A stretch of DNA of 64,000 nucleotides from Zygnema cylindricum (taxonomy: Eukaryota > Streptophyta > Zygnematophyceae > Zygnematales > Zygnemataceae), in assembly GCA_037447655.1 (NCBI GenBank), contig JBBHKE010002700.1, positions 52,966-116,965 of the forward strand, given 5' to 3'. The notes below the pieces were generated by a model. It did no database searches. It was not told where the DNA came from and worked only from the letters and a program-made list of their open reading frames with translations. The position numbers were made by a program, and so were the translations under genes. Positions 3,981-56,677 of this stretch are shown here, one piece after another (within the stretch, counting starts at the first letter, position 1; every line of letters begins with the position of its first letter).

Positions 3981-5089
3981 AAGAACAAGAGGACTGTCGG
4001 TGAGTTTTATACACTGTCTTAGCTTTACTTATGCATGTGTTTATTCATGTTGTATCTTTTTAACCACATTCGTACTCTGATGTTATTTGCTTTGCTTGCA
4101 AGAACATCAACAATTTATGTCATACGTCTGGAATGCAACTGCATTGTGTGTGTTTTTTGCACAAATATGATCGGATTTGTCTAATTTTACTTTGCTTATG
4201 CAATTTTCTTTTCTGGCACCATCGTCAGCAAGTTATCCTGAAGCAATTTATGGTTAGGGTTCAATTTGTATGAACGCATTATGATTATGACTGTTCTTTA
4301 CCGTCGTATCTTGCTTTTGGTTAACTTCAGAAGTGTAATTGCTGTCACACACTTGACTTATTTTGGGTTCAGAAGCCATTTTATGGAATTCAATTAAAAA
4401 TTAAATTAATTATGGTTCGTTTCCACATTTGGTAGCCGTCATCATCGCTTGTGCGTCTGGTTTGTTGGGGTTCAGGTCGTAATTTAGATCCCATACCTAC
4501 AAGCTTTTTTCATTGTCCTTTTCAACATGTACGTGCTGTATTTTCAAATTGTCCTACAGGGATCTAATGCTGTTCGGGCAGATTCTCAGCAGATACAGAA
4601 ATAGGCAGGGTTTCCCTTAGTGGAGTTGCAGCAGCCTTGTTAATCTCTGGCCATTCATGTTTACATCTGTTATAATCAATTACATAGTTTATTTTGCTTA
4701 AAGCACTTTTGCTGGTTCTTGCAATATCTCTTTTTGCCTGCTGTATCTGACTACTCTTAAAGCCTTCCCAAGTATAAATATTTATATTTAAAAAAAACAG
4801 CTTCAATGGTTGTTATTAGCCACAGTGCCGATGATGCATTTGCCCTTGGCCTTTATGTTGTCTGCCAGCTTAATAAATTCAGCTGGTATATTGAGTTATA
4901 GTTGTGATTTGGAGAATTTTCTAATAATTTTATATCAAGACAAGTCTAGTAGTCACGCGGAATACTAGCTGGACCATTTATGTGTAACTTCATTCGTTTT
5001 CAAATATTTTAATTTTATTCCCGATGGTGATATTACAGGGTACAATTTCAGTGGTTTAGGTCCTCTTGAAAGGGCTCACTGTAATTTAC
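3981..5089 (+). promoter_or_regulatory. Possible 5' UTR and 5' UTR intron of exportin-T
   Basis: Inference only. A strong donor (CG|GTGAGT) begins at 4000 and a good acceptor (TATTACAG) ends at 5038, 51 bases before the exportin-T ATG. The DNA between is T-rich like the gene's other introns and has no coding potential. An untranslated first exon ending near 3999 would explain it. No TATA box was identified. Confidence 0.3.
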
Positions 5090-8000
5090 ATGGATGATTT
5101 CGAAAAAGCTATTCTGTTTACTTTCGATCAGAGCGGGGCTGTTGATGCTCAGCTCAAGTCCCAGGCCCAGGCTTACTGCGATCAGGCTAAACAGTCAGCT
5201 GGGTTCTGGCGTGCTTGCCTGGAGCGAATAGCAGTTTCACAATATGTGGAAGTGCAATTTTGGTGCCTTCAAAGCCTGGAGGAAATTATTCGACAGCAAT
5301 ATGGCTCTTTTAGAGCGGAGGATTCTCTTCTTCTTCGGCAGACTCTAACGTCCATTGTTTTGTCAAGTAATGAACAAAAGCTGCCTCCTTCAGACGTTGG
5401 GTTCAAGAAAGGTTTGTCTGTGATGGAAGACAGCAGATTGGCAGGCTGTGGGCCTGGGAACGCAGTAGTTTCTAGTGAAGGTTTGCAGAACCAGACTCGG
5501 CCTGCCTTTGTGCGCAATAAATTGGCACAGATAGTAGTTCTCCTCATCTTCTGTGATTATCCTTCCGGGTGGCCTTCTATCTTTTTAGACTTGTTGCAAG
5601 AGCTGGAACAAGGGCCTCATGTTGTGGATATGATGTGTCGTATTTGCAATACCCTTGATGAAGAAATCATCAGCTTAGATTATCCTCGCACTGCAGAGGA
5701 GAATGCAGCAGCCACACGGATTAAGGATGCTATGAGGCAGCAGTGCATTTCACAAATGGTGGACTCATGGTACAGACTGGTAGTAGCGTATGAGAGGGTA
5801 GAGCCTGGACTCAGTGCTTCTGTCCTTGAAACTATGCATCGATTCATTGCATGGATGGATATCAATCTTGTCGTCAATGATAAATGGGTGCCATTATTTT
5901 TCCAACTACTTTCTTCTTCTGAAGTTCTTGAAAGGCTTCGTGGAGCTTCTGCTGCCTGTCTCTTGGCCATTGTATTAAAACGCATGGACGCATTGCAGAA
6001 ATTAGCACTCCTTCAGCGCTTACAGATGATTCAAGTCTGCTCTGGAGTTACGGAAGCCAGGGACACAGATTTTGCAGTCAAGTTGTCTTCTCTCCTAACT
6101 GGCCTGGCTTCTGAATTATTAGAATGTTGCAAGAAGTTGGAGGTTAATGGTGCAGTCACTGCACCTGAGGCAGTAGGTGCTTCTGAATTGGCTCATAATA
6201 TGTTAGACGAGGTACTTCCAATTGTTTTGCGGTTTTTGGAACATGGTGAAGAAGATATCTCGATGACCACTTTTCAGTTTCTTTTAGCCTATGTTGGAAA
6301 TATAAAGAGGGTGGGTGCCTTGAGCATAAAACAACAGGAGCACCTGGCTCAAGTTCTGGCTGTCATAAGGTCCAGGATGCGTTATGATCCATCATTTGAA
6401 GAGTCTTTAGCTGATCCCGACAAGGAAGGATTGGAGGAGGAAGAAAGGATGAGTGAGTACAGACGGGATCTTTTTACACTACTGAAAAATATCTCTCGAA
6501 TTTCCCCTGAAGTGACCAAGGCATTCATGCATTCATGCCTTTTAACAACTATTGCTGGGCAAAACACTTCTTTTGAAGACATGGAGGTCGCCTTGACCTT
6601 ATTTTATCAGTTGGGGGAGGGTATATCCGAGGAGGCTCTGAAGCCAGGAAGTGGCCTCATGGCTGAAATGACTGCTGTGGTGATTACATCAAATATTCCT
6701 CATCACTCCCACAGAACAATTGCACTTCTGTTTTTGGAAATTGTTGTCCGTTATGTTCGGTTTATTGAGCAGCATGGAGAGTATATTCCGCCTGTCCTGG
6801 CTGTGTTTTTGGGAGACAAAGGCATTCATCATCCAAATATAAATGTGGCCAGTCGAGCAAGCTATCTCCTTATGCGCCTTGTAAAGGTTCTGCGAGTGAA
6901 GCTGTTGCCTTATGTGGAATCTATTTTGCAGGTAATTTACATTCATTCTATTTGGATAACTAATTGTTTTGGTTACTTCCATTCTTTTTTTGGTTGTTTT
7001 TTGGAGTCTGTACATGTACTCGGGTTTCTCAATAGTAAGCTGGATACATGTACAATTTATGGAGCCCCGTTTATGAGGACAATGAAACAAATTTAACGAC
7101 ATTGGTGTCCACCTAGATGTGGTTTTTAAGGTCCAATGCTGTGGACAATTCAATCTGGTCAATTCTAGGATGATCGTGCTAAAAGAAGAAATAAAGGTTC
7201 TATTCTGATCGCCCATGGGTTTTATCACGTTTTACATGTTTGTTTTAACAGAGCTTACAAGATGTCCTTGCTGTAATTGCAACTTCTTCATCTTACAAAG
7301 TCATTACTGGCCGGGTTGAGGGGCCGTTAGATGAACGGATTTACGCATTTGAGGTAATTTTAAGACTGACAATTTTGAGAGGTCCTTTAATCCAACATAA
7401 TCAATGTATCATGGTCATTCATATCCTCAAAATATCTTTCTTTTCTCGTTGTGAATGCATGTGACTTCTTTTTCTGGATATATCCGTCTGCCAAAAGATG
7501 TGCTTTTATAATTCAGCAATTGACATTGTTAAATGGCTTTACTTTGACAGAGCTTTTGACCATGCATTGTGGTTGTTAGTTTGCATGAAGATGTCTAAAC
7601 TTGCTAGTTCTGTTTCACTGCTTTTGGAACGAGAATACATGGTTCAAATTTTGTGTGCCCCTCTTTTCGCAACCCATATTTTTTAATGTCTCTCTCTGGA
7701 TGTTTCTTGCAGGTTGACGCGAGTATTCCTTGCTTTCACATCAGTAGCATAATTATAAAGCTAGAAGGACCTCAAGTTTAAATTGGCTGCGGTCAGCTGA
7801 CATTTGCTTTTTTCTGTTTGTTTTGTCCTGGTTCAGGCAGTTGGGCTGTTGATTGGACTTGAGGATTTACCAGAGGAAAGAATGTCCAAGTACCTTTCAG
7901 CACTCCTTGTCCCTCTCTGCCAGCAGGTTTGCTTCATATGCTCATTTTTTTTTATGCTGACAGTTTTTGATTTGCCAGCTATTCTTTCTTTTGCTAAAAT

Positions 8001-20007: not shown

Positions 20008-20217
20008 TACACCGCGTATCGCTATTAGTGTTAATCACCTAAAACATCTTTTCTTCGTACACGCTTGTCGGATTATGGATCTGACGACGGCAATTACAAG
20101 CTAAGATTCTCATCTTTCGATTGGTGGTCTTTTATGTGAAAATTGGACAAGTGTGAAAGGAGAAAAAATGTTTTAATGGCGAATTTTTTTTTAACACTAA
20201 TAGCGATACACTGTGTA
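20008..20217. mobile_element. MITE family A, 210-bp subfamily
   Basis: Ends are TACACCGCGTATCGCTATTA and AATAGCGATACACTGTGTA. The interior mirrors itself: ACCTAAAACATCTTTTCTTCG near the left and its complement (AGGAGAAAAAATGTTTTAAT) near the right, so the whole element can fold back. No coding capacity. Confidence 0.85.
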
Positions 20218-28652: not shown

Positions 28653-28712
28653 CTTTTCATGCAATGAAAAATAAAGAATTGCCAAAATAAAAATCCAAAC
28701 CTCCGGTATCAG

Positions 28713-28934
28713 TACAACCGTGAATCGTTATTAGGGTTGATGTTTTTTTCGTCTCTGTGAACATCATTTTCTCTGTACACGAATTTCGGCTTTTATATCT
28801 GACGGTTGTTTTTGAAAGGTAAGATTGCCAGCTTCCGATTGACGGTCTCAAATCGAAAATCGGACAAGTGTGTACGGAAAAACGATGTTTTAAGTTGGCG
28901 AAAAAATATTTAACACTAATAGCGATACACGGTA
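28713..28934. mobile_element. MITE family A, 210-bp subfamily (worn ends)
   Basis: Ends TACAACCGTGAATCGTTATTA and TAATAGCGATACACGGTA. The interior has the subfamily blocks ATTTTCTCTGTACACGAATT and ACAAGTGTGTACGGAAAAAC in mirrored positions. Confidence 0.8.
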
Positions 28935-29045: not shown

Positions 29046-29244
29046 TACACCGTGTATCGCTTTTAGTGTTAATAATTTTTTCACCACTTAAAACATCTTT
29101 TCTCCGTACACACTTGTCCGATTTTCACATGGAAACCGAAGGTAAAAATCTTGGATTTCAATCGCAACCGTCAGATCTATAATCCGACAAGCGTGTACGG
29201 CTATCATATGTTTTAAGTTAACGCTAATAGCGATACACGGTGTA
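29046..29244. mobile_element. MITE family A, 210-bp subfamily, next to the metallothionein promoter
   Basis: Ends TACACCGTGTATCGCTTTTA and TAATAGCGATACACGGTGTA. Interior mirrored blocks AACATCTTTTCTCCGTACAC and CGTGTACGGCTATCATATGT. It ends about 50 bp upstream of the TATA box at 29294 and could contribute regulatory sequence. Confidence 0.87.
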
Positions 29245-30709: not shown

Positions 30710-31247
30710 TAGGATGAAGGAATTTTGAGCTTCGATGCTTCCAAGATAAATAGGCGGTCTATGTTGGTGGCATATGTGGGAACTTGTTTAGCATCTAGAA
30801 TTGATATCTACTATGTCTCTAGGAAATACCTAGATTGTCAAGAGGTTCTCAAGCCGCAATATAAGAGTATTCCCACTTTTGGTTTTTCGTATGATAGAAA
30901 TCTCAGCTTGTCATTGCAGCTGATAGCATGAGGAATGTTGATTGGAACAATGGTTAAAATAGAGATGAACTAGTGAGAATCGCTTTTTGTAAAGGACTTC
31001 TGATTGTATCCGACATAAATTGATGCTTTGATTGATACATAAATTGATGCTTTGATTTCGATATTTGGTGTCATATGTATGAATTGTTTCATAGGCTTTG
31101 ATACGTGGGAGCACTAGGGGTCGTGTGCCTCTATCTTTATAAAAATGCAACTCTACTGGTTTCTGGGTTGTTGCCCAACTTTGCAATAACTCTAAAATTT
31201 AAAGATTCAATTTGTTAATATGTTAACTGGTAAGTTCTATTCAAAGC
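30393..31247. other. Metallothionein 3' flank; no gene seen
   Basis: Likely 3' UTR followed by intergenic DNA. A (GA)n microsatellite lies at about 30677-30709. A short tandem copy of ATTGATGCTTTGATT is near 31018-31055. Confidence 0.4.
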
Positions 31248-31341
31248 TGTTGACGTACGTGAAACGTGCGCTCGATATCTGGAATTGTGGTAAAATCCAC
31301 ATCAAAAGCCATATAAAATTGGACCCATTAGCGTAACATCT

Positions 31342-31639
31342 GAGCTGGTGGTACAGTGGTTAGTACGGTTCCCAGCTACACGTTCACAGCTACACATTCA
31401 CAGCTACACATTCACAGCTACACGTTCACAGCTACACATTCACAGCTACACGTTCACAGCTACACATTCACAGCTACACAGCTACACATTCACAGCTACA
31501 CATTCACAGCTACACAGCTACACATTCACAGCTACACGTTCACAGCTACACATTCACAGCTACACATTCACAGCTACACGTTCACAGCTACACAGCTACA
31601 GTGAGTGAAAGGTCCCAGGTTCAAATCCTGGCCGACTCA
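31342..31639 (+). other. tRNA-like module in the 5' LTR, interrupted at the anticodon loop
   Basis: Acceptor-like GAGCTGG pairs with CCGACTC (six of seven, one wobble). The A box TGGTACAGTGG (31349-31359) fits the Pol III consensus fully. The T arm CCAGG-TTCAAAT-CCTGG contains the B box GGTTCAAATCC (31618-31628). The two halves are separated by the CAGCTACA minisatellite, whose position corresponds to the anticodon loop. Confidence 0.72.
31373..31600 (+). repeat. Minisatellite, unit CAGCTACACRTTCA
   Basis: The array is exactly 228 bp: fourteen 14-bp units (CAGCTACACATTCA or CAGCTACACGTTCA) and four short 8-bp units (CAGCTACA). LTR 2 has a single CAGCTACA at the equivalent place. The expansion therefore took place inside the 5' LTR after or during insertion. 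Confidence 0.93.
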
Positions 31640-31694
31640 TCAATCCCTTTATTGGGATCGTCTATTCTATCCCCCGATTCTAGGAATCTTAACA

Positions 31695-31760
31695 TGGTAT
31701 CAAGGCCAAGGGGACTAGGTTTACATGGACAACTATGACCGGCTACCTTTCGAAGGGGGG
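31695..31760 (+). other. TRIM internal domain: primer site and polypurine tract
   Basis: 66 bp. TGGTATCAAGGCC (31695-31707) resembles the canonical TGGTATCAGAGC complement of the initiator tRNA-Met 3' end and starts directly at the LTR border. CGAAGGGGGG (31751-31760) abuts LTR 2. Nothing else is needed for template function apart from a packaging signal. Confidence 0.78.
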
Positions 31761-32025
31761 TGTTGACGTACGTGAAACGTGCGGGGTGTTCACATACGTG
31801 AAACGTGCGTTCGATATCCGGAATTGTGGTATAATCCACACTAAAACATATATAAAATTGGACCCACCAGCGTAACATCTGAACTGGTGGTACATTTGAA
31901 CTGGTGGTAAAGTGGTTAGTACGTTCTCAGCTACAGTGAAAGGTCTCGGGTTCAAATCCTGGCCGGCTCATCAATCCCTTTATTGGTATCGTCCATTCTA
32001 TCCCCCGATTCTAGGAATCTTAACA
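31761..32025 (+). repeat. TRIM 3' LTR
   Basis: 265 bp. The first 26 bases are a second, partial copy of the LTR head (TGTTGACGTACGTGAAACG, then GGG, then TGTTCACATACGTGAAACG). A 17-bp duplication of GAACTGGTGGTACATTT precedes the tRNA-like module. Otherwise it matches LTR 1 without the minisatellite. Confidence 0.85.
31898..31970 (+). other. tRNA-like module in the 3' LTR (73 nt, full length)
   Basis: Exactly the canonical 73 nt. Acceptor GAACTGG with CCGGCTC, a partly paired D arm around GTAAAGTGGTTAGTAC, anticodon stem TTCTC/GTGAA with one mismatch, loop AGCTACA and T loop TTCAAAT. A box TGGTAAAGTGG at 31905-31915 and B box GGTTCAAATCC at 31949-31959. The anticodon position would read CTA but position 33 is G instead of T, so it is probably not a working tRNA; the Pol III promoter parts are intact. 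Confidence 0.68.
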
Positions 32026-32042
32026 TAAGCTTTGATGAGAAG

Positions 32043-32264
32043 TACAACGCGAATCGTAATTAGCGTCAAGGTTTTTTTCGCAACTTAAAACATTTTTTCT
32101 CCGTACACACTTGTCGGATCATGGATCGGACGGTTGCGATTGAAAGGTAACATTCTCAACTTCCGATTGGCGGTCTCAAATTGAAAATCCAAGAAGTGTA
32201 TACGGAGAAAAGATGTTTAAAGTGGCGAAAAAAACCTTGACGCTAATAACTATTCGCGGTCGTA
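32043..32264. mobile_element. MITE family A, 210-bp subfamily, beside the TRIM
   Basis: Ends TACAACGCGAATCGTAATTA and AATAACTATTCGCGGTCGTA. Mirrored interior blocks AACATTTTTTCTCCGTACAC and TGTATACGGAGAAAAGATGT. It begins 17 bp after the TRIM ends. Confidence 0.83.
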
Positions 32265-37591: not shown

Positions 37592-38603
37592 GGTACAAGA
37601 CAACCACATTTCATATAAATTCTCTGTACTGTCGCCGGTCGCTTTTTTCACATAGAGAAACTTTTCAACATTTGAGAAAAGGTATTTGACACTAATTAAT
37701 CCTCGGCTATAATAGCTTAAGGAATGAAATAGTATTATTAATTCTATTTTAGGTTCAAGAGTCGTAATTTACAGGCTCCGATTATGTGTTGTCAGCAGTA
37801 ATAGCGATTCACGTTGGAGTCTCGAAGATTTGCTGTTATATCTTAACATTTCTGCAACGATTCCGTATTTTATTGTACCTATTTACGTCAACGTTGTCGT
37901 CAAGCGAAAGTGACGTTTGCGAAAAGTCTTTCGTTGAGTATTGAACCATTTTCGCCTTTTCGGATCCAACAGGGTGGATACTACGGGAGTGCACGGGCAA
38001 CCGAGAAAAATGTGCAGGTGAGCCTATGATTGGATGTTTGTTCAGGCGTGTTTTCATTCTACAGTACTTTTTGTTTTTCACTGTACTTCTTTACGCTTCT
38101 TTGTTTTTCTGAACCAATTCGATTGATAAACTTCATAAGTGTGGTTGACTCACCGCCAAATTGCCATCGGAGGTTCTGTACTTTCTGTACTTTTCACCGC
38201 CCGTTTGCTGAATCACTGGTCTATGACTTTTGACTTTCAGCCTGATATTTCTTCTCCTCTTTTTTCAATCCATTTCAGGCGGTCTCCGCTAGGTACAGTT
38301 CTGTATTTGTCTCTTATCTCTTCACTACTAATACTTTATTTTTTAATTTTATTGCACCAATGCGGATCTCTTTCCTTTCTTTTTTTTCTGAATTTACAAT
38401 TGCTTTAATTTTGTGCAGAAACTTTCTTCCTTTCTTTTCCCGTGAACACTTATTTTCTTGCCCTTCTTATCTTTGTTCCCTGTTACTATTTTAACTCTCC
38501 GTATTTTCCCCTGTTCTCTGCAAGATTTCTTCGCTTTCTGGTTTCCCGTTCGTCTCTGCCCTCTCCCTCTCTTTTCTTCTCCTTTCCCTCCTTTCTCCTA
38601 GCC
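37592..38603 (+). promoter_or_regulatory. Upstream region and pyrimidine-rich leader of the pseudokinase gene
   Basis: The last 300 bases are very T/C-rich, like a long plant 5' UTR. Possible 5' UTR intron from CCGCTAG|GTACAG (38294) to TTGTGCAG (38418). An open frame runs in from 38442 but lacks an ATG before 38604. Confidence 0.35.
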
Positions 38604-39707
38604 ATGTCGTCTTTCCGTAGTATGTTTTTCAGTAAAAACAAACAAACCTCTTCTTCTTTGACGGCACACCTTATTGATGGAAATCCCGCGTTCACCGGAT
38701 CATCATCATCAGCTGGAAGCTATTCCGCACATTTTGAGCAGGAGGGTGGAGTATCGTCTCCACGTTCAAGTTTTATGAACCCTATTTTGGAACCAGAGGT
38801 CCATATGAATCCTATGGATCTTCTATTTGGAGGTGGCAGTTTCCAGCACCCTTTTACTACGATGTTTGACGTACAACAAAACTCAGGACCGAAACTTACA
38901 ACTTTAACTGTACAACAAGTACAACACATAACTGGTAACTTTTCAAAGCTTAGGATTATGATTGAAAAGGACTCCTGGAGTGTTTTCAAAGGAGAGTTTT
39001 CAGGGAAACCGGTGGCTGTCCATAAGATTCTGACGAACAGCGAAGAACTTGATTCAATGGCAAAGAAGATGCAGTCCGTAAGCCACGATCATGCAGCAAA
39101 AGCAATTGCTTGGTGTCCAGAGAATGGCTGTATTGTTGTCGAAATATTGAAGGGAAAAAGCTTACGAGAAAAACTGTCCGATGGAATAAGATGGCAGGAT
39201 CGCTGCCGAATAGCAGTTGACATTGCATCAGCAGTTGAATATTTGATAGACAACGAGGTTGCAGTGAATGGGATTGATTCTGCTGCAATTTCTTTGGATA
39301 AAAGTAATACAAAGAGCAAGCTTATATACTCCATTGCTGGGGATCGTATGGACAAACAGTCATCATTTGAGGGTATCGGGCTGCTGTTTCTTGAGCTTCT
39401 GACGACTTCATCAAATAAAGAGGTTCTGAAGCTTTCTTCTATTCTCCAAACGAGCAAGAAACCTACGTCACTTTTAATAGAGAGAATTGGCTCTCGAGTG
39501 GGCACTTGGCCGGAGGATGTGTTGACAGCCTTTGTCAGTATAACTATCACATGTTTGAATGCCAGCAGACAAAAAATGAATTGGAAGACACTGGCGGCAG
39601 AGTTAGCCCACCTTGGGAAGTTGGTGACAGAGGCAGAAAAAAACTCTAAAAAAAGTCCAGCCAGCTCTTCCTCAAGTTCTGGGAATGTACCTCCTCCAAA
39701 GGTATGA
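38604..39707 (+). CDS. Protein kinase-like pseudokinase
   Basis: 367 aa from the ATG at 38604 (MSSFRSMFFSKNKQ). Residues 1-100 are Ser-rich and disordered-looking. Residues about 112-340 follow the kinase fold: VFKGEFSGKPVAVHKI (strands 2-3 with a VAIK-like Lys141), EILKGKSLREKL, IRWQDRCRIAVDIASAVEYL (helix E), and FEGIGLLFLELLT (helix F). Catalytic parts are lost: the glycine loop is EKDSWSV, the HRD/HGDLKPEN region reads VNGIDSAAIS, and no DFG is present. It resembles plant RLCK or U-box-associated kinase domains. The tail (345-367) is Lys/Ser-rich. The stop follows directly on a good donor (AAAG|GTATGA), and an acceptor TTTTGTGCAG precedes an N gap, so a spliced longer 3' end is possible. 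Role: probably a scaffold or allosteric partner, by inference. Confidence 0.72.
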   Translation: MSSFRSMFFSKNKQTSSSLTAHLIDGNPAFTGSSSSAGSYSAHFEQEGGVSSPRSSFMNPILEPEVHMNPMDLLFGGGSFQHPFTTMFDVQQNSGPKLTTLTVQQVQHITGNFSKLRIMIEKDSWSVFKGEFSGKPVAVHKILTNSEELDSMAKKMQSVSHDHAAKAIAWCPENGCIVVEILKGKSLREKLSDGIRWQDRCRIAVDIASAVEYLIDNEVAVNGIDSAAISLDKSNTKSKLIYSIAGDRMDKQSSFEGIGLLFLELLTTSSNKEVLKLSSILQTSKKPTSLLIERIGSRVGTWPEDVLTAFVSITITCLNASRQKMNWKTLAAELAHLGKLVTEAEKNSKKSPASSSSSSGNVPPPKV

Positions 39708-39948: not shown

Positions 39949-40263
39949 CACAACCCTCTAATTGCTCGCCTAACTGCTTTAGCCTGCTTGCTTTGTGTTT
40001 AGCGTATAGACCTTTTAATAGCATGCCAGTCGGTTCTTCCCGGCAACTAACTGTAGCTTAACTGCCTGCGCTAAGTCTTCCCTGGTGTTTACTGCTTCGT
40101 GTGAACCTGCCATACTCCACGAAGCATGATGTGTTGTTATCAGTCGGCCTACGATACCTGGTGTTGAATGATTTGTGGTACTCGTAAATTACATGCCGGA
40201 AGATAGACAATTATAGATCTTTGTTCTTAAACATCAAATCGATTAAGATTTATCACAGACTTA

Positions 40264-40835
40264 CTATTATAAGAGTACTTTTGAAACCTAATTTTGCCAT
40301 TTCTCTAAATCTGAATAGTGCGACACTATTTAGAATTAGCTAAACTACAAATTCTTGTTTCTAGATATTAACAGATAGAAGGCCGTACATTAAATGCTCA
40401 TGGTGTTTAGTAAGTTGTGGTCCATAGCATCCGGCTGACTATTGTTGTGTAGTACGAAGCACCTCATACCGTCCAAGTGTGCTTCGTCATTTGTGGTCCC
40501 TTCTGAATCGCGTCCGTCAATTCGATGTCAATCAACGGCCCTTCTTGGCTGACCGTACGATAATTTTCCAGATATGCGATTTGTGTTTCGTTCGTCCGAT
40601 TTCGTCAATCCGCTCGTTAATCTCCCAACACGTGTAACGGTTCTACTCCGTGAAACTTGCAACACCCTTTTCATGCCGACGCATGTCCAATTGGTTCTAC
40701 AGTACACTCTCTTAGTCTTCTATTACTGTAACACTATTTGAGGTAAGTATTACATGTTTTCATTTCCCAAAATATTTTAAGTCTTTATTCCTCCTCACAT
40801 CTCTATCTTCTGAGTAAAGATTTCGAATTTCAACA
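40264..40835 (-). repeat. Copia element 1, 3' LTR
   Basis: Runs from TATTATAAGAGTAC to GAATTTCAACA (the reverse strand begins TGTTGAA). Similar throughout to 43508-44089 with scattered differences. The outer boundary is uncertain by several bases. Confidence 0.82.
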
Positions 40836-40858
40836 CTCCCCTAAATCTTTAGACTTAG

Positions 40859-41287
40859 TCACTCACTTAGCCTAATAGCCTTTCTACCAAACTGCACTTT
40901 AGGAGCAAGAAAGGGTTTGGTTAGCATGTCAGCAACCATTCTCTCATCCGGTAAATAACACAATTTTAACAATCTTGCAAGCACATTTTCTCTCACAAAA
41001 AGAAGTCTGACATCTATGTGCTTGCTCATAAAATGATGACTTGGATTAGTAGCAATAGCAATGGCTTCCTGGTTGTCACACCAAATAGTATGTGGACCTT
41101 TCTGCATGTATCCAAGTTCCTGCAAAATGGACTTAACCCATAGGAGTTCCTTAAGTGCAGAAGCTGCTGCCATGTACTCTAACTCCATTATAGACTGTGC
41201 TATAACCTTTTGCTGCTTGCTGCTCCAGCAGCAAGTTCCTTCTCCGATCTTAAGAACGAAGCCGAATGCGGATTTTCTGTTTGGCAT
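40859..41287 (-). pseudogene. Copia element 1 RNase H fragment
   Basis: The reverse-strand frame contains QKVIAQSIMELEYMAAAS, IWCDNQEAIAIATNP, SKHIDVRLLFVRE and ERMVADMLTKP, the hallmarks of copia RNase H. It reads as a 142-residue uninterrupted segment, but the upstream pol is broken. Confidence 0.85.
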
Positions 41288-41442
41288 ATCTCCATAGTTG
41301 CCGTCACTCCAAGTCTACATTTTCACTTCTCCTACTTCGAGTATCAGCTTACGATCTCAGGTGCCTGCAAGGTATCTCAAAACTCTTTTTGCAGCTTCCC
41401 AGTCTACCCTTTTATGATTCTGCACACCTCTACTTAGGACTC

Positions 41443-42134
41443 CTACAGCTGCTGCATGTCAGGTCTTGTACAATTCATGAAGTATATGAGACTTCCCACT
41501 ACCTGTATATACGGCTTTGAAGCCATAAATTCTTCCTCTCCTGACTCTAGGCTCTCACTAACCGTTTTGCCTGAGTCTGACTCACTTCCATCAAGCTTCT
41601 GTTTGAGTTCCATGGGAGTAACAGATCCTTTTACATCGTTTATTTCAAATTTTTCGAGCATATTAATTATTGCTTCCTTTGGGGTTAACATAATGAGTTT
41701 TCTCTTTCTATCTCTCTCTACCTGTATTCCTAAGATATACTTAGATTCACAAAGGTCGTTCATCTCGAACCTCGACCTTAAAGCCGTTTTAATTCGATTT
41801 ATTTCATCCATAGACTTGTTACTAGAAGCAAGTCATCAACATATACAAAAATATATAGAATCTCATCCTCCCCTTGTAGTAGATACACTGAATGATCTGA
41901 ACTAATCCTTTGCAATCATAGTCTAGTAAGAAATTCATCTAGTTTTAAGTTCCATTGTTTGGGGGCATGTTTTAGCCCATATAACGATTTTATTAGTTTA
42001 CAGACTAAGTTTTCTTTCCCTTTCTCTGCATACATCTCTGGGTGTTTCATGTAAATGGTTTCCTCTAACTCTCCATGTAGGAAAGTTGTCTTAACGTCCT
42101 TCTGGTGGACTTCCATGTTTTCTATAGCAGCCAA
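41443..42134 (-). pseudogene. Copia element 1 reverse transcriptase fragments
   Basis: Reverse-strand segments include VHQKDVKTTFLHGELEETIY, LIKSLYGLKHAPKQWN (42134-41916) and then RFEMNDLCESKYILGIQVER (41811 down). They are in different frames with stops between them, so the polymerase is inactive. A YVDDLL-type catalytic motif region lies around 41820-41850 (its reverse reads IFVYVDDLLL). Confidence 0.83.
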
Positions 42135-42599
42135 ACTTAGTAAGTTTCTGACAATGGGAAATATGACAGCCGGAGAGAAGGTTTCCTCAAAATCAATACC
42201 TTCTTTCTGATTGTAATGGTTCCTACAGCATAAGACAAGGGATCATATTCTTCAGTTGCGGAACTTGAGAAAAGAGCAGTTCCCCGAGAAGATTTCCCCA
42301 AAAAGCCCTTAGGATATGGGCTTTGCTGCTAGCCTGGACGATATAATCCTGTTTCATTTGCCTTTTTCAACTTCAAACAGTAAGTTGTATCCATGTCTGT
42401 TTTCAGAGTAGTAAAAGTAAGTAGTAGAGTATCTATTTGGCCTATTATTATACTGAATCAGATTGTGATTCCTATCTTGATTTTCGTTGTGATTTTATAA
42501 AGTTTTTCGGTTAAAATATGTGTTCAAAGCTTATACCTTTCTCTCTCCATGAAGTATTTTAGTAGTTGCTTCTTCTTCTAAGATCAGATTGTATACTAA
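42135..42599 (-). pseudogene. Copia element 1, degenerate middle
   Basis: Short reverse-strand match to the start of RT (KKEGIDFEETFSPAVIF around 42150-42205) at the right frame order. The rest is too decayed to assign; integrase was not recognised. Confidence 0.5.
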
Positions 42600-43165
42600 A
42601 TGAAATGTCCAGCTACACTTATCATGAGTTTTCAGTTAGACAGACACTCCTTCATATTATTAGGGAGTCCTCTAACAAGTAAAGCTGCCTGCTGGAACTC
42701 AAGAAATGAGCAACCACCTGACGAATGTGAATCAATAAGAACACGAAATTTATCACAATATGTCACCATACTCCCCCTAGAGTATTTATAGTCCCAGATT
42801 TGTCCAGCCACCAGAAGTTCTTCATGTACATTAGATATTTCAAAAGCTGTTTTTAGTTATTCCCAGATTTCTTTTGCATTTTTCATTTTGAGCCGAGACA
42901 TTACCAAATTCTCTGAGATGGACAAGATCAGATTTTTTCTCTCCAATGAGTTTTTCTTCGCCCAGCTTGGATCTATTTCATCTAAAGTACCATCCAAGAT
43001 CCCCTATAAATCAACAGTTTTAAATGTGGATTCAACCATTGCTGGCCAATATGCATACTTTTGGCCATTGAATATGGGAATTCTTGATGAAAGGTCCATA
43101 ACCTGTAGTTCTACAACCACAATTGTAGGAGGAGAACCAGCAGCAGTAGTAGTGGAAGTAGACAT
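42600..43165 (-). pseudogene. Copia element 1 gag remnant (UBN2-type)
   Basis: The reverse strand begins MSTSTTTAAG at 43165 and continues with IPIFNGQKYAYWPAMVES, IDPSWAKKNSLE and MKNAKEIWE, as in copia gag. An in-frame stop follows TFKTVDL and another follows KEIWE. Confidence 0.75.
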
Positions 43166-43507
43166 CTAAAACCGAAGCTATCAAGCACCATACTCAACAA
43201 CCAACTTCAAGATGTAATAGAATGCAACTCAGTGATCTATGCAGACTCAAATTTTGCATAACAATAGTAAACAGAATGTAGAATCACTCCTGAAAGATTC
43301 AACTTGATTGGTCCAGTCAATCATAAGATATTCATACTGCAGATTTACAAAAAACTGCCTTTGTTTATTAATATCCCAAGACTTGGATGATCATAATTTG
43401 TCTAAGTCCTAAACTATATACTCACAGTGATTTTCTATTGGTCACACTAATTGAAGTGACTGTATTATAGTACTGTCATATGCTACGACAAAGTACTAAA
43501 ATTGTAC

Positions 43508-44089
43508 ATATTATTATAAGAGTACTTCCAAAACCTAATTTTGCCATTTCTCTAAATTTGAATAGTGCGACACTATTTTAAATTAGCTAAACTACAAAAA
43601 AAAAATCCAGATATTTACAAATAGAAGACTGTACATTAAAAGTTCCTGGCGCTTAGTCAGTAGTGGTCTATAGCATCCGGCTGATTGTTGTCATATAGTA
43701 CGAAACACCTGATATCGTCCAAGTGTGCTTCGTCATTTGTGGTCCCTTCTAAATCGCGTTCGTTAATTCGATGTAAATCAACTCCCCTTCTTGGTTGACC
43801 GTACCATACTTTCCCAAATATACGGTTTGTGTTCCATTCGTCCGATTTCGTCAATCCGCTGTTATTCTCTTGAAACGTGTAACTGGTCATCGGCGCTACT
43901 CCGTAAAACCTTCAATACCCTTTTCATGCTGACGCGTGTCCAACTGGCTGTACAGAACACTCTCTTAATCTTTCATTTCTGTAACACTATTTGAGGTAAG
44001 CATTACAGGTTATCATTTCCCAAAATATTCTAAGTCATTAATTCCTCTTCACAGCTCTATCTACTGAGTAAAGATTTCCAAATTCAACA
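43508..44089 (-). repeat. Copia element 1, 5' LTR
   Basis: Direct copy of 40264-40835, ending AATTCAACA. The expected tRNA primer site just inside it is not obvious, so the border may be eroded. Confidence 0.82.
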
Positions 44090-51134: not shown

Positions 51135-51584
51135 TGTTGAAATATAAATAAAGGATTTTTTAGTTTTCTTCCATATTTTATAATCCTACACGCTACGCTA
51201 TTAGACTGTGGTTTGACGTTCCGTACTTGAAATAGTGGATTGTACAAATTTTTGTTAATGTTGATTATTATTTCATATGAATCCTTTTTGTATTTGATTC
51301 CTTTTAGCGTAACTAGTTGTACCTTCTTAAGATACGCCTAAATTAGATGTACCTTGAAGAGCCTTTTCGGCTACCATTTACTTTGTCTTACTTTAAGACT
51401 CCTTTGTGTCTTAGTGAATATCATCCAATTGATAAGACACTCAAACGACAAACCTCTCTCTTGTTTTCTTTGTTTGTCGTTACTCTTTTTAGTCTCTTCT
51501 ATCTAGACCTTCTATTCTTTTTTGGCCTCTTTTGCTATTTTGACATATTAGCTTTATTGGCTTATTATGGCCACTTATTCAATA
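51135..51584 (+). repeat. Copia element 2, 5' LTR
   Basis: Starts TGTTGAAATATAAATAAAGG and ends TTATTCAATA. Similar along its length to the 3' LTR (shared CCTACACGCTACGCTATTAG, TTGATTCCTTTTAGCGTAA, GACTCAAACGACAAACCTCT-like blocks). Confidence 0.83.
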
Positions 51585-54576: not shown

Positions 54577-55200
54577 ATGACGACAAGTGGACAATGGAAG
54601 GTTGTTGCTACACAAGAGTACGACGCACTTGGACCTTATGTACTCTTCCACCAAATCGGTGCGCGATTGGATCTAAGTGAGTCTTTAAAATTAGATGGCA
54701 GATGGATCCGTCAACCATTACAAAACACGTTTGTCGCCAATGACTACTTACAAACAGATGGCATTGACTATAAAAAGACCTTAGCTCCTGTTGCAAAGTT
54801 TGACTTCATCCGTACGATTTATCTCTTGCCGAAGTTTGACTTCATCCGTATGATTTTGTCGCTTGTCGCTCTTCATGAAAGGGGGTTACAACAACTTGAC
54901 ATCAAAATTGCTTTTTTTTATAGCAGTATCTCAGAGGATGGTTTTATGGAACAACTACCTGGCTACACAGTCATTAGGAAGGAAACTCTAGGAAGGAAAC
55001 TCTTGTCTTTCATTAACGGAAGTGTATTTATGGTCTTACACAGGCACCAAGAGTGTGGCATCAAACCCTTGTCACAACATTAATTAAAGAAGGTTTTAGG
55101 GAAATCAGTGAAAATCTTAAAATCTATATAAGCGGTACATAATCATTATTATCATTTACGTTGATGATTTAATTTTTGCAGGACCAAATAAGTCATTAAC
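54577..55200 (+). pseudogene. Copia element 2 reverse transcriptase relic
   Basis: GIDYKKTLAPVAKFDFIR and GLQQLDIKIAFFYSS are RT motifs. The catalytic YVDDLIFAG is present at about 55158-55184 in another frame. An in-frame 36-bp tandem duplication repeats KFDFIR. Stops and frameshifts inactivate it. Confidence 0.82.
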
Positions 55201-56163: not shown

Positions 56164-56677
56164 CGAGTTAAAATACAATTCAAGCATTTTTTAGTTTTCT
56201 ACACAACTTTAGTCCTACACGCTACGCTATTAGTCTAAGGACTTGTCCCCATGTGCTCAAGTAAGGGTTTTTTGGTTACATGGGGACACGCCCTAATACT
56301 ATTGTTTAGAGTTTTGTACTTTATTTAGTAGATTGTATATACATTTTTTAGTGTTGATGATTCTTTTGTAGGAATCTTTTTTTTCTTTGATTCCTTTTAG
56401 CGTAATTAATTGTACCTTCTTAACTTACGCCTAGATTAAATGTATTTTTTAGAGCCTTTTCTGCTACCCTTAAATTTGTCGTACTATAAGACTCACATAT
56501 AACTTCGTGAAATATCATTCAATTGATAAGAGACTCAAACGACAAACCTCTCCCTTGTTTTTCTTTTATTTCCGTTACTCTGTTGTCTCTTCTATTTTGG
56601 CATTCTCTTCTCTTTCGGCCTCTTTTGCCATTTTGGCATATAAGCTATTTTGGCCTTTCATGGCCACTCATTCAATA
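56164..56677 (+). repeat. Copia element 2, 3' LTR
   Basis: Matches the 5' LTR apart from a 58-bp insertion (MITE plus TAA duplication) at 56239-56296. Without it the length is about 456 bp. Ends CATTCAATA. Confidence 0.8.
56239..56293. mobile_element. 55-bp Harbinger-like mini-MITE in the 3' LTR
   Basis: GGACTTGTCCCCATGTG at the left mirrors CATGGGGACACGCCC at the right, flanked by TAA on both sides. Its GTAAGGGTTTTTT segment also occurs in element E (34083-34860), so it looks like a deletion derivative. It is absent from the 5' LTR. Confidence 0.82.

Follow-up and report, generated by a model that had tools for sequence, protein, structure and literature searches.

A TRIM with tRNA-like sequences in both LTRs in the streptophyte alga Zygnema cylindricum

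The 64-kb stretch of Zygnema cylindricum DNA that was analysed (hereafter the window) contains a non-coding LTR element of 778 bp at positions 31248-32025, both LTRs of which contain a tRNA-like sequence. This raises the questions of whether these sequences act as a Pol III promoter that drives the RNA of the element, and whether elements of this kind are already known. The paired LTRs with TGTTGA/TTAACA ends and the 66-bp interior with an initiator-Met-like primer site and a polypurine tract, both reported in a preliminary description of this DNA, were borne out. The element and its flanks are composed as follows.

31243-31247, plus strand: left flanking pentamer (target-site duplication), aaagc; 4 of 5 bases match 32026-32030 (sequence)
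31248-31694, plus strand: 5' LTR, 447 bp, TGTTGA...TTAACA (pairs with the 3' LTR)
31695-31760, plus strand: interior, non-coding, 66 bp (between the LTRs)
31695-31707, plus strand: primer-binding site (PBS) TGGTATCAAGGCC, initiator-Met-like (11 of 13 positions agree with the presumed complement)
31753-31760, plus strand: polypurine tract (PPT) AAGGGGGG, adjoining the 3' LTR (sequence)
31761-32025, plus strand: 3' LTR, 265 bp, with two tandem duplications, TGTTGA...TTAACA (pairs with the 5' LTR)
32026-32030, plus strand: right flanking pentamer (target-site duplication), taagc; one mismatch to the left pentamer (sequence)

The PBS directly adjoins the end of the 5' LTR, and it was compared with TGGTATCAGAGCC, which we take to be the complement of initiator-Met tRNA. 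The exact word TGGTATCA occurs four times when both strands of the window are considered, one of these occurrences being located directly at the LTR end. The flanking pentamers form a near-perfect target-site duplication (TSD), and 2.0% of random pairs of window pentamers agree equally well. None of the listed open reading frames (ORFs) of at least 120 aa overlaps the element. A second copy was not found within the 64-kb window, and screening of the viral contig and genome contig collections with a 29-base pattern spanning module and LTR sequence resulted in 0 exact matches, as expected for a eukaryotic repeat.

tRNA-like sequences in the LTRs

A tRNA-like block consisting of an A box, a B box, a T arm and acceptor halves had been described for each LTR. 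Such a block is indeed present in both LTRs, but the one in the 5' LTR is split by an array of short tandem repeats. The modules, the array and two other duplications are located at the following positions.

31341-31641, plus strand: split tRNA-like module of the 5' LTR, A box at 31349-31359 and B box at 31618-31628 (ARAGORN, intron mode)
31369-31594, plus strand: minisatellite, 17 copies of the 14-bp unit TTCACAGCTACACA, interrupting the 5' module in its anticodon region (TRF)
31757-31809, plus strand: tandem duplication of 26 bp comprising the PPT end and the LTR start (alignment and TRF)
31875-31909, plus strand: tandem duplication of 17 bp where the 3' module begins (TRF)
31897-31972, plus strand: continuous tRNA-like module of the 3' LTR, A box at 31905-31915 and B box at 31949-31959 (ARAGORN and Rfam RF00005)

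When run on the whole window in default mode, ARAGORN made a single call, tRNA-Val(tac) at 31897-31972, and none in the 5' LTR. In intron mode, a split cloverleaf was detected in the 5' LTR at 31341-31641, in which the 207-nt "intron" corresponds to the array. Allowing introns over the whole window gave two calls, one for each LTR, and no third, and the same two calls were obtained when the window was cut into 447-bp pieces (143 non-overlapping and 636 overlapping). Not one of 1000 dinucleotide-shuffled versions of the 3' LTR (searched in default mode) gave a call, and neither did any of 1000 such versions of the 5' LTR (searched in intron mode). Only calls at the default thresholds were used, lowered thresholds having led to several spurious calls within and near the element.

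Rfam analysis identified a tRNA match at 31898-31970 with a score of 35.3 bits (gathering score 29; E 0.0011 over 64 kb and 4227 families), which is the sole match in the window at the gathering threshold. The 5' module was not recovered by Rfam at E values up to 5; only the 3' module is scored because its 5' counterpart is split by the 14-bp array. When both strands of the window were screened for A-box/B-box pairs within 25-300 bp, only the pairs starting at 31349 and 31618 and at 31905 and 31949 were detected, and 200 mononucleotide shuffles contained on average 0.01 pairs per strand. From start to start, the two boxes are 44 bp apart in the 3' LTR and 269 bp apart in the 5' LTR.

We rejected the possibility that the module is an intact, working tRNA gene. 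The module RNA folded on its own does not adopt a cloverleaf, and its stability does not exceed that of shuffled sequences (z +0.24), 110 of 200 of which were at least as stable. Moreover, the isotypes called by ARAGORN disagree, being Val for the 3' LTR and SeC for the 5' LTR, in which the array blurs the anticodon. That the RNA is no more stable than its shuffles argues against a working tRNA and leaves room for a role as promoter, as is argued for Helenus elements in the accessible text of Kojima (2024; PMC10886601).

The LTRs align as two blocks, one of 108 nt (88% identity) and one of 92 nt (95%). They differ at 18 of 212 gap-free positions (13 transitions and 5 transversions), corresponding to a K2P distance of 0.091. 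At 7e-9 and 1.3e-8 substitutions per site per year, values that apply to flowering plants rather than to the host of this element, the distance would place the insertion about 6.5 or about 3.5 million years ago.

The minisatellite, which is missing from the preliminary description, has a total length of 226 bp. The 5' LTR contains 18 occurrences of its repeated core, AGCTACA, against one in the 3' LTR and six elsewhere on the plus strand of the window. In the 3' LTR, this core overlaps the anticodon loop of the module (31930-31936), with the anticodon itself positioned at 31932-31934 by ARAGORN. The array is restricted to the 5' LTR and the 26-bp and 17-bp duplications to the 3' LTR, and all three look as if they arose after insertion, although a contraction in the 3' LTR could also account for the asymmetry of the array. 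According to the ARAGORN drawings, acceptor pair 3-70 is broken and pair 4-69 is intact in the 3' LTR, and the reverse is the case in the 5' LTR. Since the LTRs break different pairs, the simplest reading is that the acceptor stem was probably whole at insertion and that the two copies have decayed separately since.

Proposed transcription of the element and alternative explanations

We infer that, most likely, a tRNA-type Pol III promoter drives the RNA of the element and a Copia element supplies the enzymes, and that the element is mobile. Pol III would be recruited through TFIIIC bound to the A and B boxes, perhaps aided by a TATA sequence 30 bp upstream. Transcription would begin in the 5' LTR, close to where the tRNA-like sequence starts, cross the interior, and continue into and past the 3' LTR; the promoter, being downstream of the start, would be retained in the RNA. 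This RNA would then be copied by the enzymes of a Copia-type element, with initiator-Met tRNA as primer; the U3 part would be restored by strand transfer to the 3' LTR, and integrase would insert the DNA copy, generating a duplication of 5 bp.

What we count for the Pol III reading is the TRIM anatomy, the two tRNA calls exactly in the two LTRs, the confinement of A- and B-box pairs to these same places, the Rfam score of 35.3 bits, the acceptor stem that was probably whole at insertion and the Helenus-like layout (see below). Against it we count that the 5' module, which would have to drive the RNA, is now split by the array, that the fold of the module RNA does not exceed that of shuffled sequences, that the TSD has one mismatch, that a single copy was seen, and that TATAAA, which is present at two positions, also fits Pol II.

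31312-31317, plus strand: TATAAA in the 5' LTR, 30 bp upstream of the first tRNA-like acceptor base at 31342 (sequence)
31851-31856, plus strand: TATAAA in the 3' LTR, with the first GAACTGG (31881) 30 bp and the continuous module (31898) 47 bp downstream (sequence)

An upstream TATA suits a plant-type tRNA gene and a Pol II promoter alike, and a TATAAA at -30 would fit the two polymerases equally well. It is therefore possible, though we think it doubtful, that the TRIM is transcribed by Pol II from TATAAA and that the tRNA-like block is a passenger or has a role at the RNA level only, in packaging or structure. The first GAACTGG of the 3' LTR belongs to the first copy of the 17-bp duplication. 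Counted to this copy, the distance from TATAAA is 30 bp, the same as that to the first acceptor base in the 5' LTR, and a Pol II start would fall on nearly the same base. The lack of unusual stability of the module RNA is also compatible with Pol II transcription. What argues for Pol III instead is that the A and B boxes fit the consensus in both LTRs and that the B box is identical despite the 18 differences in 212 positions, a point weakened by the chance expectation of just about two differences over the boxes.

The sense strand of the element does not contain TTTT, and a T run does not occur until 32072, 47 bp past the 3' LTR. A Pol III transcript could thus run through the element. We rejected this absence as strong proof of Pol III transcription: TTTT is also absent from 317 of 1000 shuffles of 31601-32025, making its lack permissive rather than positive evidence. 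Among 689-bp stretches of the window (both strands), 39 of 2534 are without TTTT.

It is very improbable that these are ordinary LTRs that resemble a tRNA by chance. The conflicting isotypes (with the blurred 5' anticodon) and the non-cloverleaf fold would agree with such a resemblance, but the shuffled LTRs never gave a call, the window as a whole gave two, and the Rfam E value was low. We give still less credence to a SINE or tRNA pseudogene that landed by chance in an unrelated repeat after the element had inserted: tRNA-derived SINEs are common in plants, but the block has the same position in both LTRs and must therefore pre-date integration, and by eye neither a SINE tail nor a target duplication of its own surrounds it.

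Relation to Helenus, Cassandra and other elements

The element had been proposed as the tRNA counterpart of Cassandra, perhaps using Pol III, and no named plant family of this layout was known to the author of that description. The anatomy was read correctly, but the counterpart has already been published: Kojima (2024; PMC10886601) defined Helenus, and as one of its families is from a plant, the layout is not new. As described in the accessible text of that paper, Helenus comprises TRIMs whose LTRs contain a tRNA-like sequence; its members come from fungi, animals and a single plant, Selaginella moellendorffii, whose family has a 120-bp LTR and an 85-bp interior. Helenus is grouped there with Cassandra and Ajax as TRIMp3; the lengths given are 311-1263 bp (the screen used <1000 bp), and the plant and fungal members have a 5-bp TSD.

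The Zygnema element fits a Helenus-type element by its layout, a comparison made by description and not by sequence homology to a named family. It shares with Helenus the tRNA-like LTR sequence with A and B boxes (continuous in the 3' and split in the 5' LTR), the non-coding character and TRIM size (778 bp, within the 311-1263 bp of that text), the PBS after the 5' LTR and the PPT before the 3' LTR. In both cases, going by the same text, the tRNA fold is probably non-functional. Of the box motifs given there, YGG and GGTTC are present, and box A reads TGGTA instead of TRGCY. The element differs from Helenus in its host, a streptophyte alga, the sole plant family in the accessible text being that of Selaginella, and in the 14-bp array in its 5' LTR, which stretches the distance between the boxes from 44 to 269 bp.

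Cassandra, as far as the accessible text of PMC7215508 describes it, contains a 5S RNA sequence with promoters and terminators in its LTRs and the PBS TGGTATCAGAGC. The likeness lies in the PBS and in the promoter of a small-RNA gene within the LTRs; the difference, with respect to that description, is that the Zygnema LTRs contain a tRNA-like block, and no T4 run is present in the element. A 5S rRNA in the LTRs was not found, as Rfam at the gathering threshold identified the tRNA alone in the window. Relaxing the E value to 5 added a single match within 31200-32080, to a miRNA model over the array (16.5 bits; gathering score 100). To our knowledge, SINEs have no LTRs, PBS or PPT, unlike the element at 31248-32025. 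What SINE2 elements, the tRNA-derived SINEs, have in common with it is a tRNA-like head with A and B boxes, as also appears from the accessible text of PMC10886601.

The survey of plant TRIMs by Gao et al. (2016; PMC4717578) names, in the text accessible to us, TRIMs in three algae (Chlamydomonas, Volvox and Chondrus), and the word tRNA occurs 0 times in its main text. Among the open-access papers listed, to which the literature search was confined, titles and abstract beginnings gave no further tRNA-carrying plant TRIMs.

If the element is of the Helenus type, Helenus would extend to the algal relatives of land plants, which would favour a repeated origin of TRIMs with Pol III promoters. A speculative and rather improbable extension is that it belongs to an active, Pol III-driven lineage of streptophyte-algal TRIMs independent of the Selaginella Helenus, whose promoter would tolerate a minisatellite of variable length in the anticodon region, the A-to-B spacing varying between copies and tuning transcription. 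The two LTRs of this single insertion, with spacings of 44 and 269 bp, provide a ready test of the stretching of a tRNA-type promoter. For annotators, the element calls for caution because a tRNA finder reports a tRNA-Val inside it.

Other features of the window

Five copies of a repeat family (pairwise identity 75-77%) are present at 28711-28933, 32041-32260, 29049-29219 (inverted), 20008-20217 and 969-1117 (inverted). The copy at 32041-32260, which begins 10 bp past the target duplication of the TRIM, contains a hairpin with 72-nt arms that are 89% complementary.

Five pairs of repeats in the window were inspected for LTR ends and primer sites of a Copia partner. A probable Copia remnant is located at 40259-44089 on the minus strand, between 84%-identical repeats that start with TGTTGA, and contains RVT_2 similarity at 41443-41811 (E 2.5e-6, under Pfam's cut-off). 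Its repeats (40259-40835 and 43506-44089) share the TGTTGA start with the TRIM, but their inner ends are the ends of the alignment and not CA, and no TGGTATCA primer site follows them. For these reasons, we do not name an autonomous partner. A second Copia-type reverse-transcriptase fragment at 54577-55083 (RVT_2, 37.1 bits) lies between two direct repeats (51205-51584 and 56298-56677) that share 80% identity.

A 421-aa ORF at 38442-39707 shows modest similarity to kinases (26.2 bits), and a search for its homologues gave none at E 0.001 among 8000 scored candidates. FBPase was likewise no guide to the placement of the host, as most of the 120 matches listed out of 394 were fragments, full-length proteins lying beyond the length limit of that search. 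The ORF at 5066-7096 is a gene fragment of exportin-T, the tRNA export receptor. Among the best 120 of 165 matches, it is 87-91% identical to one sequence and at most 56% identical to the other 119. A midpoint-rooted tree was built from 33 rows, namely the window sequence and 32 of the 120 matches listed, with no hornwort or gymnosperm knowingly included. In this tree, the window exportin-T groups with streptophyte algae and not with seed plants: it forms a group of six rows together with Klebsormidium, Chara, a row that we take to be Spirogloea from its gene name and two further rows. Ferns, flowering plants, mosses, liverworts and lycophytes fall outside this group, the split having 100/100 support. 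The placement of the window sequence inside the group, next to the putative Spirogloea row, is less firm (89/87), and three rows of the group have long branches.
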